Shown here piece by piece: positions 1 to 7,315 of a stretch of DNA of 64,000 nt. The stretch covers positions 434,001 through 498,000 of the forward strand of contig JABTTZ010000002.1 in NCBI GenBank assembly GCA_015075625.1, written 5' to 3'. The DNA comes from Anaerolineales bacterium (GTDB lineage: Bacteria > Chloroflexota > Anaerolineae > Aggregatilineales > UBA2796). The notes under the pieces were generated by a model. It made no database searches, had not been told where the DNA came from, and saw only the letters and a program-made list of their open reading frames with translations. Position numbers and translations under genes: made by a program. Position 1 is the first letter of the stretch. The number at the start of each line of letters is the position of its first letter.

Positions 1-3000
1 AGCGGGACGGAGCGGGCGCTCTTTGAGGAAGGACTGGCGGCAGTGGCTGAGGATAATCCGGTGGGTGCGCTGTCCATGCTTCAACGGCTGATCAACCAGC
101 CCGATTTGGGGAAAGAAGATGCCGCCCTCCTACTGATCCTTGCCGCGAGAGCCCATATGGCGCGGGCAGCAGCCGATGATTTCGAAATGGCGCGGAATCT
201 CTTAGCGCTGGCGAAAAAACGCGCCGCCGACCTGCCCCTGATCGACGTAGCCGCCGCCGACCTCGCCCGCTTAGAAGGGGCATTTGATACCGCCCGTGCC
301 GCCTATCAGAAGGCTGCCGCCCAAACGCCCACCCTCGATACGGCACACGCTGTCAGTGGGGCGCTCGTTGGGTTGGGTCTCCTTGCTGAGCGCGAGGAAC
401 AGTGGGGCGAGGCGGATAAGTACTTTGATGCCGCCATTGCCGCCCTCCAACGCGCCGGCGTGGGCGATTTCCTGAATACATTCCGCGCCTACTTTGCGCC
501 GCGTTCTGGCAATCTTTACCTGCAAGCGGGCTACACCCTTCAGCGGATGCAGCCCGATCTGGCGCTGAAGGCGGCGGATGAAGCGATTGCCCTGGGCATG
601 AAAGCGCCCACTTCCCTGCCCTACCCAGAAAAGATTGCCCACCAACTGCGCGGCGATCTGTTGCGCGGGCTAAACCGTGTAGAGGAGGCGGCAGAGGCAT
701 ACCGCGAGACGGCGCAGCGTCACCAGTGGTCTTACCAAACGACGAACAACGCTGACGATCTGCGCGAATCGGGGGCGGCGTATGAGGCGGCGATCAACCT
801 GCTTTCCCCCCCACCAGATGGCGACGCCCGTCGCGCCTGGTGGGAACGTTGGCAAGGGCTGTATTGGAGCGGATCGGATACCTACCTGATCGCCAGCTAC
901 CTGAACCGCCCGCCTTATGTCGATGGATCGATGCTCGAACGGAGCATTGATCTCTACCATCGAGGGATGTCTTTTGGTGGGCAAAGCGCCGAGTACAACT
1001 GGACGTACACCCTCCGCGCCCGCCAGCTTGGGCAGCAAGCACAGCTTGAGCCGCCTCCCCGCCCGAAAGGGGAGTTGATTTGGGAAAGCCACCTGACACT
1101 GGAACGCGGCTGGCAAAAAAACCGCGAGGACGCCTACTTTTGGATTGCCCTCGCCCAGAGTTTCGCCGCCTTGTGGCTGGATACCAACGCTGTCGATACT
1201 GTTCGGCGAGCGCTTGCCCTGCTCCCACAGGATCGCTATGTCGTCGGGGAGGCGATTATCATTTTCGTCAATGCTGGCGAATATGCCGCCGCCCGCGAAT
1301 TGATCCCCCGCCGCTTGGAGTTGGAGGAGACGCCCGAAATTGAGGATTGGTGCGACGCCATTACCGCCTTCATCATGCTCCACGAGGGCAAGGCGGAAGA
1401 AGCCCTCGCCCTCATGAATGCTGTCCTCGCTGGCAAGGATTACGTCTGGGCAAGGGCGGGCTTAGGGTGGGCGGTGGAGATCAAGACCACCGCGCTGGCG
1501 GCGTTAGAGCGTTGGGAGGACTTTCACGCTTACGTCCTTGAGAGCGTGGCTAAGGCGGAAGACGCCGAACGGCACGGCGAAGGCGACGAACGACGCTGTG
1601 CCTACCTACGGATGATTGCCAACGGTTACGAGGCTGTCCTCCCCTTTTATCGGGACGAGATCGCCATTTCTGAACGGGAGGCTGCCGCCAACGAATTCAA
1701 CATGGCGATGTGCTACGCCGCCCTCGGTGATCTGACGCGGGCGGATCGCTTTGTGCGGGCGGCATTGGCAAGCGCCACGAACACCCGCGTCTTAGCCGAT
1801 TACATCGGGGCGGATTTGAAGATCATCGCCCATTACACGGCGGATAAACCTTATGCCGATGATCTGAAACGCTTGATCGCCGTCTGGCAGCAGATCGGCT
1901 TGGAGCGCCTTGCCGATTTGCAGCAGTACCCGATTGAACCGCTGAACGAGTTAGAAGGGGCGCTCACCTCGCCCGCCCTTACCCGCCGGGCGCGGGTGGC
2001 GCTCCAGAGCGGGGTTGCCCGCCTGCGCACCTTCGCCGCTGAGGATGGCGCTGCATCATGGCAAGAGGTTGTCCTCACCTATGAGGACATGCCCCTCAAC
2101 GACGATCCCGATCTGCGGGAGTGCGCCGAAAACGCCGCTGTTGCCCGTACTGCCTTCCTTGTCGAGGTGGATCGCCACATCCGCATAGGACGCAGCGATG
2201 AGGCGCTGCTCGCCCTCAGGACGCTGCACAACCTGCACCCGCCCCCAACGGGCGAATTGAGTCTGCGCCTTGCCGAACGGCACGCCTTCCTCGCCTTTCT
2301 ACGCGAGGGTGATACGCCCCTCGTCAGGGAACGCTTTGGAGAGGCACTTAATGCCCATCTCGGCACTCAGATGGTCAGCCTGCTCCCCGATGCAGAAACC
2401 TATTGGGAGCTTGATTCACTCTTGGCGGCGCTGAAGGAAAGCAGCAGCGCCGATAAGCAGACTCTGTGGGCTGCCGCCCAAACACAGCTTAGCGCCTTCC
2501 TAAACGTCCATTTTGGCTTGGTTGCCCCACAACCTGCGCCCATCCCCGCCGTCTACACACCGATCTACCTTGAACTGGATGAGGGCTTGATCACCGATGC
2601 GACACGGCGGGGTGAGGGGGCTGTCTTTGAAACCTACCTTCCGGCGCTGCGCGAACGCCTGATGGCGACCTATGGCGTCCGCCCACCGGGGATACGCCTG
2701 CGCGAGACAGGGGCAGAGACGCGCTATGGCTACCGCATCTTGCTGGATGAGATACTCGTGGAGGTGGGGACGGCAGACGAATCGCTGCCCGACCCGATCA
2801 CCGCTGCAATGGAAGCACTAGGGCGCATCCTAGAGGGACACCTCCCCTCTTTTGCCTTTTTGGACGATCTGGCGCTGTATATCCTTCCGGCGTGGCAAAC
2901 ACAGCCGGGTGTCCCCGATCTGATCACTCGCCTGCTGCCCGATACGGCGGCAAAACTGCGCCTCTCAGAGGTTTTGCGCGGGCTGTTGGCGGAGCGCCGT

Positions 3001-3102
3001 CCGGTGCTTGAAGGAAAACCCATTCTCGAAGCGCTGGCACACCCAGAATTGGATACGGTGGCGAAGGTGATCGCCTTCTTAGACGGGAGGGAATCGAACT
3101 AA
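1..3102 (+). CDS. Large TPR-repeat protein, 5' end outside window
   Basis: The reading frame is open from base 1. A GTG at 43 is possible, but coding continues to the left edge, so the true start probably lies upstream. The 1033 visible codons are Ala/Leu/Glu-rich and consist of repeated helix pairs with TPR spacing (for example around residues 75-160, 345-470 and 540-620). No signal peptide, membrane segment or catalytic motif is visible in the part present. TPR arrays usually act as protein-binding scaffolds. The stop TAA overlaps the ATG of the next gene by one base, so the two are translationally coupled. The partner is an FlhA-like domain protein, so a scaffold role in the same complex is a reasonable inference. 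The specific function is unknown. Confidence 0.8.
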   Translation, partial: SGTERALFEEGLAAVAEDNPVGALSMLQRLINQPDLGKEDAALLLILAARAHMARAAADDFEMARNLLALAKKRAADLPLIDVAAADLARLEGAFDTARAAYQKAAAQTPTLDTAHAVSGALVGLGLLAEREEQWGEADKYFDAAIAALQRAGVGDFLNTFRAYFAPRSGNLYLQAGYTLQRMQPDLALKAADEAIALGMKAPTSLPYPEKIAHQLRGDLLRGLNRVEEAAEAYRETAQRHQWSYQTTNNADDLRESGAAYEAAINLLSPPPDGDARRAWWERWQGLYWSGSDTYLIASYLNRPPYVDGSMLERSIDLYHRGMSFGGQSAEYNWTYTLRARQLGQQAQLEPPPRPKGELIWESHLTLERGWQKNREDAYFWIALAQSFAALWLDTNAVDTVRRALALLPQDRYVVGEAIIIFVNAGEYAAARELIPRRLELEETPEIEDWCDAITAFIMLHEGKAEEALALMNAVLAGKDYVWARAGLGWAVEIKTTALAALERWEDFHAYVLESVAKAEDAERHGEGDERRCAYLRMIANGYEAVLPFYRDEIAISEREAAANEFNMAMCYAALGDLTRADRFVRAALASATNTRVLADYIGADLKIIAHYTADKPYADDLKRLIAVWQQIGLERLADLQQYPIEPLNELEGALTSPALTRRARVALQSGVARLRTFAAEDGAASWQEVVLTYEDMPLNDDPDLRECAENAAVARTAFLVEVDRHIRIGRSDEALLALRTLHNLHPPPTGELSLRLAERHAFLAFLREGDTPLVRERFGEALNAHLGTQMVSLLPDAETYWELDSLLAALKESSSADKQTLWAAAQTQLSAFLNVHFGLVAPQPAPIPAVYTPIYLELDEGLITDATRRGEGAVFETYLPALRERLMATYGVRPPGIRLRETGAETRYGYRILLDEILVEVGTADESLPDPITAAMEALGRILEGHLPSFAFLDDLALYILPAWQTQPGVPDLITRLLPDTAAKLRLSEVLRGLLAERRPVLEGKPILEALAHPELDTVAKVIAFLDGRESN

Positions 3103-4451
3103 TGCCGATGGCAGCCGATTCGCAGCAGACAGGACAAACACAAATCGCTGTCACGATAGGGCTTTCGGCGGGATCGCCCCTGGCGGCGGCACTGGTACAG
3201 CCCCCCGCCTCCAAATTTAGCAGGGAAACCACCTTCACAACGGAGACGGTGCTGCTCCACCCCGCCGAACGCCCCTTCCGTCTGACGGTAGCGGGTGAAC
3301 CTCGTCTAACCGCCCTTGAACATCTTGAAGCGGTGCGGGCATCGCTCAGCGGGAATCACCCTCGCCATAGCGCCACACGGGGCGACCTCGCGGCGTGGCT
3401 AGATGCCACCGCAGAGGCAAATCCGGCGCTGGCATACCGCTTTGTCGAGGCGCTCTGTGCGGCGACACTGACGCCCCCCCTCACCTCAACCGCCCCCATC
3501 ACCGTCTGTGTGGCAGCCGATTACCTCAGAGAGCTAACCCGCGAAGATAGTGAGGCGAATCGCGCCAATTTTCCCTTCCTGCGCGATGGGATGATGGGCG
3601 AGTTGGGGATTGCCCTTCCCCCCTTTGCCTTTTCCGCCAGCCACACCCTCCCCGCACGAACCTTCGCCTTCGAGATCAATGGCGTTCAGACGACGCCCAG
3701 ACAGGGGCTTGCCAGCGGGGAGATCTTTGTCAATGGCGATTTAGGGTGGCTGATGCCCTATTTCAACGCAGGTAGCGGACAGCCCTGCGCCAACCCGACG
3801 AACTTCACAGCGGGGGCAGTGGGGGTGGTTTCTGAGGCAAACCGCCTCGCTCTGAATGAGCTTGGCTGTACGTTGTGGACACCCTTCGGGTTTTTGATCC
3901 TCTCGGCGGCGCAAATGATTCGGGATCAGGCGGCGGCGTTCGTCACCCCCGAAACGACAGACTCTCTGCTGACGAGCGCCGCCACCTTCAACAGCGAAAC
4001 CGTTCGTGTGGCGCGGGAAACATTCAGCCCAGAACAGGTTGCGGAGGTGTGCCGCGCTTTGCTGCGGGAGGGGCTGCCCCTCCGGGATGTGCGGGGTATT
4101 CTTCACGGAATGCTCACTGCCCCAAATCGGGACGACCTTGACGGACTGATCGCCGGAGCGCGGCGTTCGCAGTGGCTGCGCTTTGCCGCCTTCTGCGGAC
4201 AGGGCGTTTATGATCTTGCCGAAGATGCTCAGGCAGTCTTTCGTGCCGCACTCCGTCGGGAGGATGTGCTGCGGCTGGTTGACCAGTTCGAGGCGTTGGG
4301 CGGGACGGTCATTGTGCGCGTTCCGCCAGCGCTGCGGCGTGCGGTGGTGGCGCATCTGCGTCCTGCTTTACCACGTCTGACGGTCATAGCCGAGGATGAA
4401 CTTCCGCCAAAGGCAGCCATCACCAGTCGGGGTGTGGTGGGTTTGGCGTGA
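3102..4451 (+). CDS. FHIPEP (FlhA/SctV cytoplasmic-domain)-like protein without membrane domain
   Basis: A 449-residue soluble protein. From about residue 130 to 380 it follows the order of motifs found in the cytoplasmic domain of the flagellar/type III export gate protein FlhA/SctV: an ELGIALPP segment (ELGxxxPP in FlhA), an EINGV strand (KIKGV), a GEIFVN turn (GE.), a Gly-rich loop leading to an Asn-Glu-Leu-Gly-Cys-Thr block (GYTVVDP region), a long helix (VIxTHL region), then SPEQVAEVCRALLREGLPLR, which matches the FlhA 'VLQxLLREGxSIRD' helix. FlhA normally carries eight transmembrane helices before this domain; here there are none, and the first 90 residues look like a different small domain. 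No other flagellar or injectisome gene is in the window. The assignment rests on recognising the motif series by eye. The role is unknown. It may act as a binding platform with its TPR neighbour. Confidence 0.6.
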   Translation: MPMAADSQQTGQTQIAVTIGLSAGSPLAAALVQPPASKFSRETTFTTETVLLHPAERPFRLTVAGEPRLTALEHLEAVRASLSGNHPRHSATRGDLAAWLDATAEANPALAYRFVEALCAATLTPPLTSTAPITVCVAADYLRELTREDSEANRANFPFLRDGMMGELGIALPPFAFSASHTLPARTFAFEINGVQTTPRQGLASGEIFVNGDLGWLMPYFNAGSGQPCANPTNFTAGAVGVVSEANRLALNELGCTLWTPFGFLILSAAQMIRDQAAAFVTPETTDSLLTSAATFNSETVRVARETFSPEQVAEVCRALLREGLPLRDVRGILHGMLTAPNRDDLDGLIAGARRSQWLRFAAFCGQGVYDLAEDAQAVFRAALRREDVLRLVDQFEALGGTVIVRVPPALRRAVVAHLRPALPRLTVIAEDELPPKAAITSRGVVGLA

Positions 4452-4523
4452 TTGTTCGCATGGTAAAGGGGGCATGAAGTAGATAGAATGGGGTGGCGTT
4501 TCTTTGGCGTAGACACAGGATAG

Positions 4524-5321
4524 GTGAGGGCGGCTGTGCCTTATAAACAACTTTTTTCGCGGCTGATCACAACAGACGCCCCGCTTGATCTTGCCTCTGC
4601 CTTCGCCCTTGAGGATGGACGCCTGTATATCGAACTCGGCGGAGAGGTCGCCCATTTTGATCTAGGGGTACATGATCTTTCAATCACCCTTGCCTTCAGC
4701 GAGCGTGCCTTTGCCAGTGGCGAAAACACAGCAGCGACAGAACGTGCCGAGGGGGCTGAGGGCACCATCTGGCGGACGACGATTAGCGTGGAGCGAGCGT
4801 CCTCAGCGGAGCAGCCGGATTATTGGTTGAACCATGCTGATATGGATGCGGCGCACTTCCGGCGGCTGAAGCTGAACGCACACAGCAGCGCCCCGCGTTG
4901 TGGGGTAACGCCCAATGGACATCTCTATGTTGTTGATGATGAGGGGATCATTCGCCTGTATGACGCCCATAAAGGCGATCAAGTGGGGGCATTCCAAGCG
5001 GCGGGGACGGATTCCCGTGTGATCGCCCTGACTGCCAACGCCGACGGGCGGTTGGTTGCCGCCTTAAACAGCCGCAAAGAGATCACCCTCTACGACACCC
5101 AGTTGCGGCGTTTAGCGTTTGTCCGTCAGGTGCGTGATGAAGCGGTGTGGTATGATCCTGAACCGGGGGCAATCATTTCGCTTTCTGCCGATGCCTTGTA
5201 TATTATTGCGGCGGCACGTGCCCACCTCACTCTAGCCGATGCCGACACACCGCCAACACCCATTGTCTACGCGATCACCCTTTTGCACTTTGTCACCCTG
5301 CCCACAGGAGTCACACCATGA
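4524..5321 (+). CDS. Beta-propeller/WD-like repeat protein
   Basis: A 265-residue protein with no signal peptide or membrane helix. Residues about 125-235 contain successive blade-like strands with the pattern 'hydrophobic-YVVDD...IRLYD', 'VIALTANADGRLVAAL...ITLYD' and 'AIISLSADALYIIAAA', typical of degenerate WD40 or PQQ-type blades; the N-terminal 110 residues are less clear. The GTG at 4524 or the one at 4536 could be the start; neither has a decisive ribosome site. It lies 72 bases after the FHIPEP-like gene and overlaps the next gene by ATGA, so it belongs to the same operon. The likely role is protein interaction; I cannot assign a reaction. Confidence 0.6.
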   Translation: MRAAVPYKQLFSRLITTDAPLDLASAFALEDGRLYIELGGEVAHFDLGVHDLSITLAFSERAFASGENTAATERAEGAEGTIWRTTISVERASSAEQPDYWLNHADMDAAHFRRLKLNAHSSAPRCGVTPNGHLYVVDDEGIIRLYDAHKGDQVGAFQAAGTDSRVIALTANADGRLVAALNSRKEITLYDTQLRRLAFVRQVRDEAVWYDPEPGAIISLSADALYIIAAARAHLTLADADTPPTPIVYAITLLHFVTLPTGVTP

Positions 5322-5815
5322 GTCCTTTTCGTCCACGCCTTGCTGCCCTCAGCCTTGCCCTTGCGCTCAGCTTGAGTGCCTGCGGGGGCAGCGCCCCACC
5401 CCCACCCACCTTCACGCCGATCTTTGGCTCGCCGCCCACAACCGAACCAATCAATGCCGAAACCTGCCCCAAACGAGGTCTGGAGCAATGGCTGCAACGT
5501 GCCACCAACCTGACAGCGGAATTCACCGACATTGTGAACAAAAGTCTGACCACCCCCCCCGGACAGTTCACACCGATTTTGAATCGGCTGATCTCCGTCC
5601 GCAGTGTCGCCCTTGCTGCGCCTTATCCACCCTGTGCCGCCCGTCACTATGAATTGCTCAACACCGTCACCGATGACACTGTGCGCACCCTTGAGGCATA
5701 CAGTTTAGGGAGCGCCCTCGATATGCCCAGCTTTATCGCGGCAATCAACCGCCAGTTTGACGAGCTGCGTAATTTGGAAAACGAGTTGAACACGATCTAC
5801 CGCTCCCTGCCTTAG
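5318..5815 (+). CDS. Small lipoprotein of unknown function
   Basis: A 165-residue protein beginning with a basic n-region, a Leu/Ala-rich h-region and a lipobox LSAC at about residues 19-22, followed by a Gly/Ser/Pro-rich linker. It is therefore expected to be lipid-anchored on the outer face of the membrane. The rest is helical, with two further cysteines around residues 50 and 105. It starts in the ATGA overlap with the propeller gene and is the last gene of the four-gene operon. I do not recognise the family. Its presence suggests that the TPR/FHIPEP-like proteins work at the envelope. Confidence 0.7.
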   Translation: MSPFRPRLAALSLALALSLSACGGSAPPPPTFTPIFGSPPTTEPINAETCPKRGLEQWLQRATNLTAEFTDIVNKSLTTPPGQFTPILNRLISVRSVALAAPYPPCAARHYELLNTVTDDTVRTLEAYSLGSALDMPSFIAAINRQFDELRNLENELNTIYRSLP

Positions 5816-5856
5816 GTGGTGGGGTACGGGTCGCTGTCCTATGTCGCCCGTATCCC

Positions 5857-5884
5857 GTAGGGGCGACCCTGTATGGTCGCCCGC
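5857..5884. repeat. Dispersed mini-palindrome (GTAGGGGCGACC family)
   Basis: The motif GTAGGGGCGACCCTGTATGG followed by TCGCCC carries GGGCGACC and GGTCGCCC as inverted arms. Close copies lie at 15663-15692 and, reversed, at about 58632-58657. It sits between the lipoprotein and asnS, which converge here, and could serve as a bidirectional hairpin. Confidence 0.7.
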
Positions 5885-5908
5885 GCTATTGCGCCTTGCA
5901 CCTCACCC

Positions 5909-7315
5909 CTACGGGTATTTCCGATTCAACGTCCGCGCATAGGGGACGGCTTCGCGGATGTGCTGCAAGCCGCAAATCCACGCCACACTGCGTTCCACAC
6001 CCAAGCCAAAACCAGAATGGGGGACGCTCCCGAAGCGGCGCAGATCGAGATACCACGCATAGTTCTCGCGGTTGATGCCTATCGTCGCCACCCGCTGCTC
6101 GATCAGATCACGGTCATAAATGCGCTCGCTGCCGCCTGTCACCTCGCCGTAGCCCTCCGGAGCAAGCAGATCGACGCTGCGGCAGACCTCTGGACGCCCT
6201 TCGACAGGCTGCATGTAAAACGCCTTCACCGCCGTTGGGTAATGGTAGACGAACACGGGCTTCTCAAAGCCCTGTGTCAGCGCCGTCTCGTGCGGGGAAC
6301 CGAAATCGTTCCCCCAGTCAATCTTCAACAAGGCGCGGAGGTCGGCAAGGTGCTGCGCATGGGTTTTGCCTTCGGGAGGGGTTTCCTCCACGCGCAGCAG
6401 ACGAATGATCTCGGCATCACTTGCCTCGCTGGAGAGCGTGTTCAGGCGCGTCACCGCCTCGTCATAGCTGATGCGCGGGAAGGGCGCAGTCACTTTTTCA
6501 AGGAAGGTTGTGTCCCGCTCTAGAATGCTCAGTTCCAGCCGATGCTTTTCGAGGACACGCCCGACAATGGCGCTGATGAACTGTTCTTCCATATCCATCA
6601 TGTTTTCAAGGGAGTAAAACGCCATCTCCGGCTCAACCATCCAAAATTCGGCAAGGTGGCGGCGCGTCTTCGATTTTTCTGAGCGGAAGGTGGGACCAAA
6701 ACAATACACCTTGCCGTGCGCCATGATGTTCGCTTCGTTGTAAAGCTGCCCCGTCTGGGCAAGGTAGGCGACATCCTCAAAGTAGCTGATCTCGAACAAC
6801 TCCGAGGTCGATTCGCCAGCGGCAGGGGTGATGATCGGTGTATCCACCAGCAGAAAGCCGTGATCATCAAGCCAATTCCGAATCGTGCTGATGATCGTCG
6901 CCCGGATGCGCAAGATCGCCCATTGGCGGGAGGAGCGCACCCACAAATGGCGCTGATCCATAAGGAATTCAATGCCGTGTTCTTTCGGGGTGATTGGGTA
7001 CTCATCCGCTGTTTGGAGAACGCTGAGCGCCTTCACCCCAATTTCGTAGCCGCCCGGATAACCCGGGGCGCGATCATCTTTCTTGACAATCCCCGTCACA
7101 CTCAGGGAGGATTCCTGCGGGAGTTTTTCGGCGGCGGCAAAGGTTTCTTCGGGAAGTTCCGGTTTAAAGGCGACACATTGGCAAATGCCTGAACCATCGC
7201 GGACTTTGAGGAAGGCGAGCTTACCCTTCCCCGTCCGATCATAGAGCCAGCCGCGCACGGTGACTTCTTCGCCAACGTGGTTGGCGAGATCAGCAATACG
7301 AACAATCGGTATCAT
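5909..7315 (-). CDS. asnS: Asparaginyl-tRNA synthetase
   Basis: 468 residues, the normal bacterial length (about 466). It charges tRNA-Asn with asparagine in an ATP-dependent cytoplasmic reaction. The N-terminal OB-fold anticodon-binding domain (about 1-105, with VTVRGWLYDRTGKGKLAFL) is followed by the class IIb catalytic core: motif 2 FGPTFRSE, the RRHLAEFWMVEPEM stretch and motif 3 GFGLGVERSVAW near the C terminus. The start ATG follows a GAGGA-like ribosome site. Together with aspS at 54.6 kb it implies direct synthesis of Asn-tRNA, at least in part, rather than complete dependence on the amidotransferase route. Upstream lies a MITE-like repeat. Confidence 0.97.
   Translation of the reverse strand: MIPIVRIADLANHVGEEVTVRGWLYDRTGKGKLAFLKVRDGSGICQCVAFKPELPEETFAAAEKLPQESSLSVTGIVKKDDRAPGYPGGYEIGVKALSVLQTADEYPITPKEHGIEFLMDQRHLWVRSSRQWAILRIRATIISTIRNWLDDHGFLLVDTPIITPAAGESTSELFEISYFEDVAYLAQTGQLYNEANIMAHGKVYCFGPTFRSEKSKTRRHLAEFWMVEPEMAFYSLENMMDMEEQFISAIVGRVLEKHRLELSILERDTTFLEKVTAPFPRISYDEAVTRLNTLSSEASDAEIIRLLRVEETPPEGKTHAQHLADLRALLKIDWGNDFGSPHETALTQGFEKPVFVYHYPTAVKAFYMQPVEGRPEVCRSVDLLAPEGYGEVTGGSERIYDRDLIEQRVATIGINRENYAWYLDLRRFGSVPHSGFGLGVERSVAWICGLQHIREAVPYARTLNRKYP

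Follow-up and report, generated by a model that had tools for sequence, protein, structure and literature searches.

An FlhA/SctV-type cytoplasmic domain without its export gate, encoded beside CHAT and TPR genes in Chloroflexota

Within a 64,000-nucleotide stretch of an Anaerolineales genome (contig JABTTZ010000002.1; hereafter the window, numbered from its first letter), we found a homologue of the soluble cytoplasmic domain of the export-gate proteins FlhA and SctV (FlhA-C) as the last gene of an operon in which a CHAT gene is followed by a TPR-FlhA-C gene and an FlhA-C gene. Five further Chloroflexota genomes from two classes carry the order CHAT, TPR(-FlhA-C), FlhA-C, with FHIPEP scores of up to 140 bits. 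An export-gate domain that shares an operon with a CHAT gene and a long TPR gene, and that is accompanied by no secretion machine, suggests reuse in a soluble peptidase-signalling complex. That the conserved operon makes such a complex rather than serving export, with FlhA/SctV-C as its scaffold and probably with a function in conflict or stress, is a reading to which we give an even chance.

To our knowledge, FlhA/SctV-C has been regarded as belonging only to flagella and injectisomes. The export-free homologues described here, accompanied by a caspase-like gene in all six cases, show that the domain can exist without the gate, and a gate-free FlhA-C allows the activities that it has on its own, such as assembly and binding, to be tested. 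They add an undescribed CHAT-centred operon type to the Chloroflexota, and they warn that an FHIPEP annotation does not equal type III secretion.

The FlhA-C gene of the window and its operon

The open reading frame at 3102-4451 matched the Pfam family FHIPEP (PF00771) with an E value of 7.6e-17, at 61.5 bits against a curated cut-off of 29.1. The match spans profile positions 328-550 of 657, that is, the soluble half only, and an HMM built from Chloroflexota FlhA proteins aligned the protein over SD1-SD2-SD3 and then, separately, over SD4 (Table 1). The N-terminal export-gate membrane domain was not found in this protein, whose hydropathy over 19 residues peaked at 1.56, versus 3.2 in the FlhA control. 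These results bear out the original prediction, which had recognized an FlhA cytoplasmic domain lacking the membrane region and had described its coupling to the TPR gene; the two genes overlap by one base, in a TAATG at 3100-3104. A genome-wide search returned 3102-4451 as the sole FHIPEP gene of the source genome. As to fliPQR, whose presence the original prediction had left to be checked, FliP, FliQ and FliR (SctR, SctS and SctT) were not found in the source genome, while the control genomes responded as expected. An AlphaFold model of the protein from a two-row alignment had a mean pLDDT of 36.5. A tandem duplication inside the gene, which we suspected by eye in the N-terminal half, received a probability of only 0.2% in a profile comparison and was discarded.

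Following the contig leftward, as had been proposed (L032, the identical contig 10 kb further left), recovered the start of the TPR gene 299 bases left of the window and placed a CHAT gene directly 5' of it. The full TPR gene encodes 1133 amino acids, and the CHAT stop overlaps its start as ATGA; all three operon genes are full-length in the source genome, and stop and start codons overlap at both junctions. The window's TPR protein is homologous to that of genome G699 over 915 amino acids (E 2e-34). The FlhA-C-like nature of its degenerate C-terminal module is clear through its relatives, which score 93-140 bits in G574, G745 and G699, and through profile comparison and alignment. The TPR array stands where FlhA and SctV have their membrane part.

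Table 1. Coordinates of the operon genes, their domains and neighbouring features (window positions unless a locus is named)
Feature	Position	Strand	Basis and remarks
CHAT gene, directly before the TPR gene, outside the window	about -1810 to -296		504 aa; PF12770 35.2 bits (cut-off 24)
TPR protein gene; operon gene 2; cut by the window's left edge	1..3102	+	TPR_2 25.4 bits, just below cut-off 27
Degenerate FlhA-C-like module, C-terminus of the TPR protein	2548..3099	+	SD1 and SD3 present, SD2 and SD4 missing; FHIPEP 21.3 bits alone, below cut-off
Stand-alone FlhA/SctV cytoplasmic-domain protein; operon gene 3	3102..4451	+	449 aa; FHIPEP 61.5 bits; TAATG coupling; homologues in G699, G574, G745, G116, G251
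SD1-SD2-SD3 of the FlhA-C domain	3576..4118	+	HMM alignment, residues 159-339
SD4 of the FlhA-C domain	4266..4445	+	HMM alignment, residues 389-448
WD40/propeller-like protein; neighbour, probably outside the conserved system	4524..5321	+	Weak WD40-type matches only
Small lipoprotein; neighbour, probably outside the conserved system	5318..5815	+	Signal peptide with LSAC lipobox (read from sequence); ATGA overlap with the propeller gene
G745 HExxH-type paralogues	L131:1689-4163, 4153-5961		No Pfam, NCBIfam or PADLOC family
G745 CHAT protein, 1134 aa	L133:3287-6691		Alpha/beta-hydrolase-like N-terminus (GHSNGG, by eye) and CHAT domain, 34.9 bits

Downstream, the propeller-like and lipoprotein reading frames are present as originally described. 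Neither is found next to the system in the five further genomes, and among 150 genomes of the class the propeller found weak matches only. Hydropathy revealed no clear membrane helix in the core proteins, which look soluble. Because the two downstream genes are not conserved and the core lacks a clear membrane segment, nothing binds the system to the envelope. The original prediction had joined the FlhA-like, TPR, propeller and lipoprotein genes into a four-gene unit and had suggested that the domain may be part of an envelope-associated machine. Its proposal that an FlhA/SctV domain was reused in another system survives, in that the system lacks the gate, has several conserved genes and is neither flagellum nor injectisome; the envelope association is not supported, and the conserved unit is instead CHAT, TPR-FlhA-C and FlhA-C, with the first gene outside the window.

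One gene order in six loci

Our first survey covered a draw of 400 Chloroflexota genomes, in which the FHIPEP matches were mostly full-length FlhA. Two further genomes, G116 and G251 (an uncultured Ktedonobacteraceae bacterium), had the C-domain only, again beside CHAT and TPR genes. An HMM made from the non-flagellar modules alone retrieved those modules together with FlhA proteins and uncovered G699 and G574, both from the window genome's class and both with full operons of CHAT, TPR-FHIPEP and FHIPEP genes; in G699 the last two score 140 and 135 bits. A model of the enlarged set, run on the 56 genomes of the order of G699, added G745 (117 and 116 bits). Comparison of these five loci with that of the window genome shows that in all six CHAT comes first and the TPR and FlhA-C genes come last. 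CHAT precedes TPR-FlhA-C in 6/6 loci, directly in all except G745, where two peptidase-like genes intervene; the six are not fully independent, as G699, G574 and G745 belong to different genera of one family. Presence is patchy, with three of 400 genomes in the phylum draw and three of 56 in the order of G699. Weak FHIPEP matches in G083, G214, G328 and G344 were set aside, and the ORF lists of G083 and G214 contain no such operon. Pattern scans of collections of genome contigs and viral contigs returned nothing except the known Ktedonobacteraceae locus. In PLSDB, the annotated records among the matches listed were flagellar or injectisome homologues only; two unannotated phage records match as well.

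The homology of these modules to FlhA/SctV-C is clear in several comparisons. Against the G699 proteins, PDB sequences for the cytoplasmic domains of SctV and FlhA reach E values as low as 3e-32, and profile-profile alignment to FlhA-C gave 99.8% (E 4e-29) for the third-gene C-domains and 99.9% (E 2e-31) for the TPR C-termini. NCBIfam models showed a mixed preference between FlhA and SctV, with all scores far below the curated cut-offs for true members. In the tree, the modules fall mostly outside the FlhA clade and close to SctV, but their branches are long. Three of the four modules carried by TPR proteins cluster with one another, and likewise three of the five encoded by the third gene, a pattern in line with two old paralogues that would have been inherited together.

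Like FlhA and SctV, the fullest Chloroflexota members contain a homologous soluble domain with SD1-SD4; unlike them, the modules come without the export-gate membrane domain, FliPQR and the chaperone-binding dimple, and often without SD2. In FlhA this dimple involves Asp-456, Phe-459 and Thr-490 (PMC8166844). We placed these residues by motif and spacing, on an alignment without the Salmonella sequence, and found SD2 absent from five of the 11 modules and the Phe-459 and Thr-490 positions replaced in most others. Given the frequent lack of SD2 and the largely replaced dimple residues, the modules appear unlikely to dock type III chaperones. The same loss weighs against a type III secretion docking platform, reduced or repurposed, that would still receive secretion chaperones or substrates; such a platform would account for the clear homology to FlhA/SctV cytoplasmic domains, solved SctV structures included, but with the membrane domain missing and FliP, FliR and FliQ not found we regard it as very improbable. 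Of the six genomes, FliP and FliR were absent from the three covered (the source genome, G116 and G251), and FliQ was absent from the five covered (all but G745).

CHAT, the proposed complex and its rivals

The CHAT domain (PF12770, cut-off 24) scores 75.6 bits in G251, 66.6 in G116, 59.4 in G699, 50.6 in G574, 35.2 in the window genome and 34.9 in G745. Four loci appear to retain its His/Cys dyad, which the other two have lost. Alignment supports an intact dyad in G116 (HFVGHG/QACESG), G699 and G251; in G745, where the aligner displaced the His, it is recognized by motif only (YFYCHA/NACET). G574 has Trp in place of Cys, and the window genome has Pro in place of His and Asn in place of Cys. 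Catalytic activity is thus not a universal property of the family. In the window genome, where both catalytic residues are gone, the complex would either act without cleavage, as a scaffold, decoy or binding device, or be decaying.

The type III-E CRISPR Craspase is a TPR-CHAT peptidase (PMC9935389, PMC9729208), and our operon likewise combines a CHAT domain and TPR repeats within one system. Unlike in the Craspase fusion, CHAT and TPR are separate genes in 6/6 loci, the TPR protein bears FlhA-C, and no large Cas7-11-like gene was seen among the neighbouring ORFs, as read by eye; the dyad, moreover, is lost in two of the six loci. In its patchy presence and its added peptidase-type genes, the operon resembles, by analogy, the NTP-dependent conflict systems with effector-associated domains, in which varying peptidase-type genes lie near a constant core (eLife 2020, 52696). 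In contrast to those systems, the operon proteins at all six loci had no Pfam match to a MoxR or STAND NTPase, and the survey of conflict systems mentions neither FHIPEP nor FlhA. At its C-terminus, the CHAT protein of G699 has a sub-threshold EAD7 match (18.8 bits, cut-off 32). Around the loci we saw no clear defence island, and PADLOC matches were weak. In the literature covered, we found no account of such a system that links FHIPEP to CHAT, Chloroflexi or tetratricopeptide repeats, or FlhA to the CHAT domain, which is not proof of novelty as subscription journals lay mostly outside; judging by titles and abstract openings, none of the covered papers that mention FHIPEP treats one.

The cytoplasmic domains of FlhA and SctV assemble into nonameric rings (PMC8213127). 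For the Chloroflexota operon we infer a signalling role in which the TPR array would recognize a ligand or partner, and the second and third proteins would assemble with each other through their FlhA/SctV-C modules, perhaps into a ring or an arc in the manner of FlhA/SctV. This assembly may gather and switch the caspase-like CHAT subunit, which, where active, would cleave a cellular target in response to stress or conflict. In favour of the soluble complex we counted the FHIPEP homology, the profile match, the six-locus order with CHAT, the missing FliPQR, the dimple loss, solubility and patchiness; against it we counted the dyad loss in two of six loci, the lack of a defence island, the weak PADLOC matches and the variable operon content. 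A more specific version, possible and put forward tentatively, takes FlhA-C as the scaffold on which a caspase-like complex for death or defence oligomerizes. Such a use would be inflammasome-like, in that the two FlhA-C proteins would form a mixed ring enclosing the TPR sensor and variable peptidases. If this version is true, FlhA-C would for the first time be known to act outside protein export.

The same soluble peptidase complex might instead serve development or housekeeping, through regulated proteolysis in Chloroflexota that sporulate or grow as filaments, and not conflict. HetF, a CHAT protein of cyanobacteria, is a comparable case. The loci lie amid ordinary genes, without phage, transposon or defence-island context, and the operon has been retained, at low sequence identity, across two classes, both of which suit such a role; a presence this patchy, even within one family, would be unusual for it, and we consider this reading rather unlikely. 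The dyad substitutions raise a further option, namely that the window genome holds a decaying copy without peptidase activity, whose TPR-borne module is eroding and which does nothing notable there. The replacement of both catalytic residues and the loss of SD2 and SD4 from that module fit decay, but the three genes have kept their full length and overlapping codons. Moreover, G574, independently of the window genome, lacks the Cys and yet has full-length genes, which suggests use as a pseudo-peptidase. Judged from these residues and reading frames, decay appears improbable, and the soluble signalling complex remains the reading that we prefer.

Variable genes around the operon

Upon inspection of individual loci, we noticed that G745 carries two paralogous genes between CHAT and TPR-FlhA-C, one with an HExxH motif (LPIVAHEFAHVV) and the other having lost it (LPFTAAEYGYLL), so operon content varies. 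A homotypic adaptor shared by the 602-aa protein of G745 and the TPR protein, suspected by eye, was unsupported (E 2.7). The G251 locus (L034:7832-10628) has a short TPR gene and interrupted CHAT and TPR frames, which in this draft metagenome may reflect assembly error or real decay. Closely 3' of the G574 operon lies a gene for a MutS domain V ATPase (L111:7352-9091; PF00488, 91.5 bits), possibly a chance neighbour. Cys-rich, zinc-ribbon-like tails end the CHAT proteins of G116 (L033:13365-14912) and G574 (L111:1112-2656) and none of the others. Lastly, proteins without a Pfam family are encoded directly before CHAT in the two loci of family f31 (L033:14933-15865; L034:10676-11851) and may be substrates or extra subunits.
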